Shown here one piece after another: positions 13,906-14,166 of a DNA stretch of 55,785 nucleotides (within the stretch, counting starts at the first letter, position 1; each line of letters begins with the position of its first letter). The notes below the pieces were generated by a model, which had not been told where the DNA came from, did no database searches, and was given only the letters and a program-made list of their open reading frames with translations. Position numbers and translations under genes: made by a program. Where the stretch lies: the NCBI GenBank assembly GCA_016867635.1, contig VGJC01000003.1:1-55785 (forward strand), written 5' to 3'. This DNA comes from Candidatus Aminicenantota bacterium (lineage in GTDB: Bacteria; Acidobacteriota; Aminicenantia; Aminicenantales; Saccharicenantaceae).

Positions 13906-14166
13906 CCTCGGGGATCGTCCTCGGTCGCTGCGGTGATTCCGGGCGCCTGCGAGGGGACCGGTCTCGGCGGCTCGCGAAACTCGCGGGATCCAGACCAGCC
14001 CTCAGGATAGCAGGCTCAGACATCGCGAGCCGTCCTCTTCGAGGATGCCCTCAACCGGCCCCCTCTCCGTCTGAATCACCGCTTTAGGCTCCTTCGGACG
14101 ATCCCCTCGGCCCTGGTTTCAGCGGAGGCCCTCGGTCGCTGCGGTGATTCCGGGCGCCTGCGAGGG
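13906..14166. repeat. Nested-palindromic intergenic repeat, copy 1, with 37-bp direct repeats (13919-13955 and 14130-14166)
   Basis: Paired arms ggggatcgtcc/ggacgatcccc, gcggtgattc/gaatcaccgc, gaggggaccggt/accggccccctc (1 mismatch), ggctcgcga/tcgcgagcc; near-identical to copies 2 and 3. Confidence 0.95.

Follow-up and report, generated by a model that had tools for sequence, protein, structure and literature searches.

The window, by which we mean the whole 55,785-nucleotide stretch of Candidatus Aminicenantota DNA analysed here, carries three copies (a, b and c) of a long palindromic repeat, the first two of which are each adjoined by a truncated piece of a second copy (Table 1). One end of copy a lies immediately upstream of a promoter-like sequence of accA, and this promoter is also kept in relatives that do not have the element. 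Relatives of accA, which neighbours copy a, assign the window to Candidatus Aminicenantes (Acidobacteriota). Copy a is matched with an E value of about 2e-13 by model R1, which was built from another subfamily. Several further contigs of the assembly terminate within the repeat, as the window does in copy c, so that the repeat fragments the assembly.

Table 1. Repeat copies, stems of copy a and adjoining features in the window
Feature	Positions	Strand	Basis or score
Copy a, 133-nt apical arm type	13900..14119	minus (functional strand)	model R2, 172.4 bits, E 2e-40
P1, outermost stem GGCC	13904..13907, pairs with 14109-14112		sequence
P2, left side	13910..13920, pairs with 14096-14106		sequence; double changes in 9/10 pairs (37 long-form copies)
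P3, left side	13930..13939, pairs with 14073-14082		sequence; double changes in 5/10 pairs (37 long-form copies)
P4, left side	13951..13962, pairs with 14054-14065 (1 mismatch)		sequence and long-form alignment
P6 of the three-way junction	13969..13977, pairs with 14023-14031		sequence; double changes in 6/8 pairs (37 long-form copies)
P5, side hairpin of the three-way junction	14033..14045		TCCTC/GAGGA in copy a; GTTTC/GAAAC in 122-nt type
Truncated piece of second copy, adjoining copy a (3' part on functional strand)	14127..14172	minus	sequence
Promoter-like TTGACT-17-TAGAAT of accA	13872..13900	minus	sequence
Copy b	20893..21113	minus	model R2, 176.1 bits, E 2.7e-41
Truncated piece of second copy, adjoining copy b	21121..21144	minus	sequence
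Copy c	55658..55785	minus	model R2, E 1.5e-16; model positions 91-208 only, 5' end missing at contig end

Architecture of the repeat

A sequence-only reading of this locus had described four nested stems (P2, P3, P4 and P6 in Table 1) and a side hairpin (P5), folding into one long arm. All of these pairings are present in the sequence at the positions it had given, and P1 forms an extra tier outside them. The single long arm is corrected to a multi-tier stem containing a three-way junction. Folding, a check which that reading had proposed, was performed on a 207-nt stretch of copy a. Folded as RNA, its minus strand reached -112.8 kcal/mol (z -4.2) and its plus strand -104.3 kcal/mol (z -3.3), values that none of 200 dinucleotide shuffles matched for either strand; as single-stranded DNA the z scores were -3.9 (minus) and -3.2 (plus).

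Across the family, the element consists of outer stems, a pair of conserved, asymmetric internal loops and a three-way junction whose apical arms are exchangeable. The outer and middle stems are common to the copies, the internal loops are purine-rich, mismatched and conserved among copies, and the apical arms are mostly 38, 54, 60, 75, 122 or 133 nt long. Entire helices are exchanged between arm types, as in the replacement of TCCTC/GAGGA by GTTTC/GAAAC. The apex reads GCGNAGC in 12 of 20 copies from outside the genus, with N taking all four bases; a GNA loop on G-C pairs is a stable type of DNA mini-hairpin (PMC4686876). In the outer flanks, own partners pair better than swapped ones (mean -23.6 versus -20.4 kcal/mol), and the element therefore reaches further out in many copies.

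At some loci other sequences are found inside the element. At L321-L324 (G007) a REP-like palindrome, CCGGGACACGTACAAGTACATGTCCCG, is nested in the apical arm, and at L153 and L160 stem P3 contains an insert that resembles an end of the IS200/IS605 type (CCCCGG..CCGGGGAGTCG).

Covariation and the selected strand

The fold is evolutionarily maintained across copies. Among 37 long-form copies (122- and 133-nt arms), whose alignment was made by sequence alone, compensatory double changes occur in 35 of 55 pairs, against 19.9 in shuffles. Double changes also occur in 18 of 40 pairs of the 31 copies with a 60-nt arm (6.4 in shuffles) and in 35 of 40 pairs of 89 copies aligned to model R1 (15.6 in shuffles), the latter alignment being fitted to the structure. 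Twenty out-of-genus copies that were not part of the training of model R2 show them in 32 of 55 pairs (17.0 in shuffles). When partner columns were slid by one to three, the covariation signal was lost in every set. An example of double changes is found in P3, where GCGGTGATT/AATCACCGC is replaced by GGGCTGATT/AATCAGCCC.

The sequence-only reading had suggested that maintenance extends beyond the sequence to the fold, and had proposed a covariation test. The suggestion held very strongly, with values that far exceeded those of shuffled and slid controls in each of three alignments and in the out-of-genus set. The evidence it had offered, namely the differences in the third arm (P4) between copy a and copy b, was weak. 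As it had stated, this arm pairs perfectly in copy b (20893-21113), where A.C and C.A mismatches of copy a, which are G.T wobbles on the minus strand, have become G-C pairs; no compensatory double change is involved.

That reading had also followed the strand opposite to the one on which the fold is selected. In a structure-free alignment on its strand, the departures from pairing within stems were 42 A.C versus 2 G.T, and these A.C departures are G.U on the reverse strand; the A.C mismatch in P4 of copy a likewise becomes G.U when read on the minus strand. On the functional strand, G.T exceeded A.C by 165 to 20 (columns 23 versus 3, p 9e-5), by 155 to 11 in the long-form copies (columns 30 versus 3, p 1e-6) and by 38 to 9 in the out-of-genus copies (columns 20 versus 4, p 0.002). 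These p values are indicative only, as related copies are non-independent and some of the alignments are model-fitted. The excess of wobbles on one strand means that the minus strand is the selected one for the window copies, and suggests that it acts as a single strand. Recognition of a cruciform, or of double-stranded DNA, is strand-symmetric and would leave G.T no commoner than A.C, and the cruciform that the sequence-only reading had allowed for is accordingly disfavoured as the selected state. Counting G.T versus A.C departures provides a simple general test for single-strand function of palindromic repeats.

Spread and genomic context

In the genome from which the window derives there are 22 BLAST matches to copy a, and a second, shorter-armed subfamily was recognised through the common right arm. 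The genome contains at least 20-30 dispersed intergenic copies of the family. All copy counts are lower bounds, since the assembly is interrupted at the repeats and only part of the candidates is scored in the searches. With model R1, the family was detected in each of the 13 genus genomes searched and on one small contig elsewhere. The restriction to the genus that this suggested was overturned by model R2, a covariance model built from the long-form copies, which detected the family in 45 of 143 class genomes, representing 23 genera. Outside the genus there are up to 13 matches per genome to this model, and with the doubtful G045 contig left aside their E values still reach 1e-18. No Rfam family matches the window at the gathering score, and the same holds for four out-of-genus loci, save a tRNA. 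Plasmid, phage and viral collections contained no similar sequence, and a phage or plasmid origin was rejected for this reason. Neither for the apex motif nor for palindromic repeats of Aminicenantes did a literature search return anything relevant.

Orthologous sites differ in their occupancy. In several relatives the accA site comprises only the promoter and the upstream stop codon, and in others a different element occupies this position; other orthologous sites lack the element, carry it, or carry it in the opposite orientation. Comparison with empty sites left the exact boundaries of the element unresolved, and some distant copies have outer inverted repeats without a clear target-site duplication. 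In three out-of-genus copies (L434, L436, L442) inverted repeats continue outwards past the modelled element, AACTGGTTCTCTTCCATTTTGTGTGGGTAA being one example.

Sixty element-bearing gaps were classified with a home-made gene caller: 35 lie between tandem, 24 between divergent and 1 between convergent genes, the available intergenic bases amounting to 5588, 2827 and 566 bp, respectively. Between tandem genes, 17 copies are co-directional with the genes and 20 are opposed. Copy orientation is thus random relative to genes, and placement is roughly proportional to intergenic space. Promoter targeting, considered in view of the 24 divergent versus 1 convergent gaps, was rejected because this distribution follows the available intergenic bases, and a UTR or terminator role was rejected because orientation is random. 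Many copies sit just past stop codons and just ahead of -35 boxes, and no neighbouring gene family was found to recur beside the element. Given the random orientation, the placement in line with intergenic space and the presence/absence differences between sites, the element probably behaves as a mobile element tolerated between genes, and not as a cis-regulatory RNA. Mobility is inferred here from presence and absence, and it is possible that turnover of intergenic regions by deletion mimics part of this pattern.

Two further observations concern other repeats. A different short palindromic repeat, GGGGACATG..CRTGTCCCC, occurs at 31795-31880, 35465-35538 and 35792-35865; it adjoins many copies of the main element and is of the type that flanks a RAYT gene in L024 (GGGGGACATGATACC). 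A dispersed repeat of about 147 bp (L347:14239-14387, in G004:C23) has copies in several genus genomes and is unrelated to the element.

Possible modes of spread and relation to known repeats

These copies form a previously unlisted, class-wide family of hairpin repeats with a strand-specific fold, and we lean towards the view that the family is mobile, its mobility being inferred from presence and absence. The explanation that, as a whole, we narrowly favour is that of a non-autonomous dispersed element spreading in the intergenic DNA of Aminicenantes, whose active form would be one folded single strand, the minus one in the window copies. A copy with a poor fold on this strand would go unrecognised and hence would not be propagated, and selection for recognition would keep the stems complementary while their sequence drifts. 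With less certainty, and by analogy with REPINs, the strand may be single-stranded DNA that is exposed, for example, at replication and acted on in trans by a single-strand enzyme not yet identified. We give DNA a modest preference over RNA as the working strand because of the REPIN precedent, in which dispersed hairpins in single-stranded DNA form, with compensatory changes, have been proposed (PMC3116915), because four copy-rich genomes lack a detectable reverse transcriptase, and because of the GCGNAGC apex with its free N. The branching and the purine-rich loops would suit RNA equally well. Neither adjacency to Y1 loci nor recurring neighbour genes identified a mobilising enzyme.

The alternative that survives best is a dispersed, multi-copy RNA, structured and non-coding, which would be produced from the minus strand in the window copies and would act in an RNP or spread via RNA. 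We regard this as possible but less likely. It is supported by the one-strand wobble bias, the three-way junction and the replacement of whole helices beside conserved purine-rich internal loops; moreover, the variably 5' truncated partner copies beside a constant 3' end would fit reverse transcription. Against it stand the absence of an Rfam match, the lack of a consistent promoter upstream of the folded strand in the flanks inspected, and the random orientation relative to genes. In addition, the reverse transcriptase domain PF00078, present in 3 of 13 genus genomes, is absent from the four copy-rich genomes G000, G004, G005 and G011, and retrotransposition, as inferred from the variable 5' truncation, was rejected on this ground.

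Movement of a REP/BIME-like repeat at a distance by the genus's own RAYT (Y1) transposases appears unlikely. Y1 genes are found in 11 of 13 genus genomes, and REPINs are likewise single-stranded DNA hairpins with compensatory changes (PMC3116915). However, a search with model R1 of all 26 Y1 (RAYT-type) transposase loci of the genus revealed no element beside any of them, and ownership by RAYT was rejected on this basis. Several of the Y1 genes come with their own, different flanking inverted repeats (e.g. GGGGGACATGATACC), and G006 and G010, both incomplete genomes, carry the element with no Y1 gene detected.

A further alternative is a MITE or cruciform site that a DNA-binding protein or a conventional DDE transposase recognises in double-stranded form. 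It would account for the terminal inverted repeats, for the longer outer ones in some out-of-genus copies and for the intergenic dispersal. It is nevertheless very unlikely, as its strand symmetry does not predict the G.T excess observed in all three comparisons and the mismatched internal loops are conserved. Just as improbable are a cis-acting element of neighbouring genes (UTR, terminator or upstream control site), which the many copies near stop codons and -35 boxes would suit but the random orientation and space-proportional placement contradict, and stems kept alike by selection-free quasi-palindrome correction, which would erase the wobbles and mismatched loops and not keep them on one strand.

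Among known systems, REPINs and the REP-RAYT (BIME) repeats are similar in being intergenic dispersed hairpins with conserved ends, a variable middle, compensatory changes and tandem clusters, and the element meets this description in its conserved outer and middle stems around covarying arms of 38-133 nt. In contrast to the short REPs, it measures about 150-220 nt, is branched with a three-way junction and conserved internal loops, and has no association with a Y1 gene; these differences in size, branching and RAYT association are enough to set it apart as a variant. ERIC and similar repeats are long imperfect palindromes that are intergenic, multi-copy and lineage-limited, as is the element, but they occur in an unrelated host, and the element shows a one-strand wobble bias and a three-way junction. 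MITEs of DDE transposases are, like the element, non-autonomous with inverted-repeat ends; unlike them, its fold is strand-specific. No autonomous partner was found, and no target-site duplication was resolved at the sites compared. In integron attC sites, it is the folded bottom strand, with its unpaired bases and variable terminal structure, that is recognised. The element resembles them in its inferred folded single strand with such features, but its copies are dispersed singly and not in cassette arrays, and no attC-like ends were noticed.

Dispersed bacterial palindromes are usually short and are attributed to RAYT transposases. Here, a large branched repeat shows strong single-strand covariation throughout a class without an accompanying RAYT or reverse transcriptase, and the family thus offers a concrete substrate for finding its mobilising enzyme. 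One may speculate further that it represents a new class of structured, single-strand mobile elements, branched, GNA-capped and selected on one strand, which would be moved by an unknown single-strand enzyme, would be ancient in Aminicenantes, and may be kin to long hairpins with a TGTYTGAGCGNAGCGAGTT apex in viral and prophage contigs of other bacteria. This bolder reading is tentative, and we stop short of favouring it. The kinship in particular is only a lead, since model R2 matched none of 80 viral-contig loci bearing the apex motif.

The apex motif was present in none of 80 accA loci. The TGTYTGAGCGNAGCGAGTT motif occurs in 87 viral-contig stretches, some of them clearly coding. At L446-L525, in viral contigs from other bacteria, it caps long imperfect hairpins that match no Rfam family, and in several of these the hairpin has flanking GGCGTTAA/TTTAGCC loops, followed by an A+T-rich inverted repeat.
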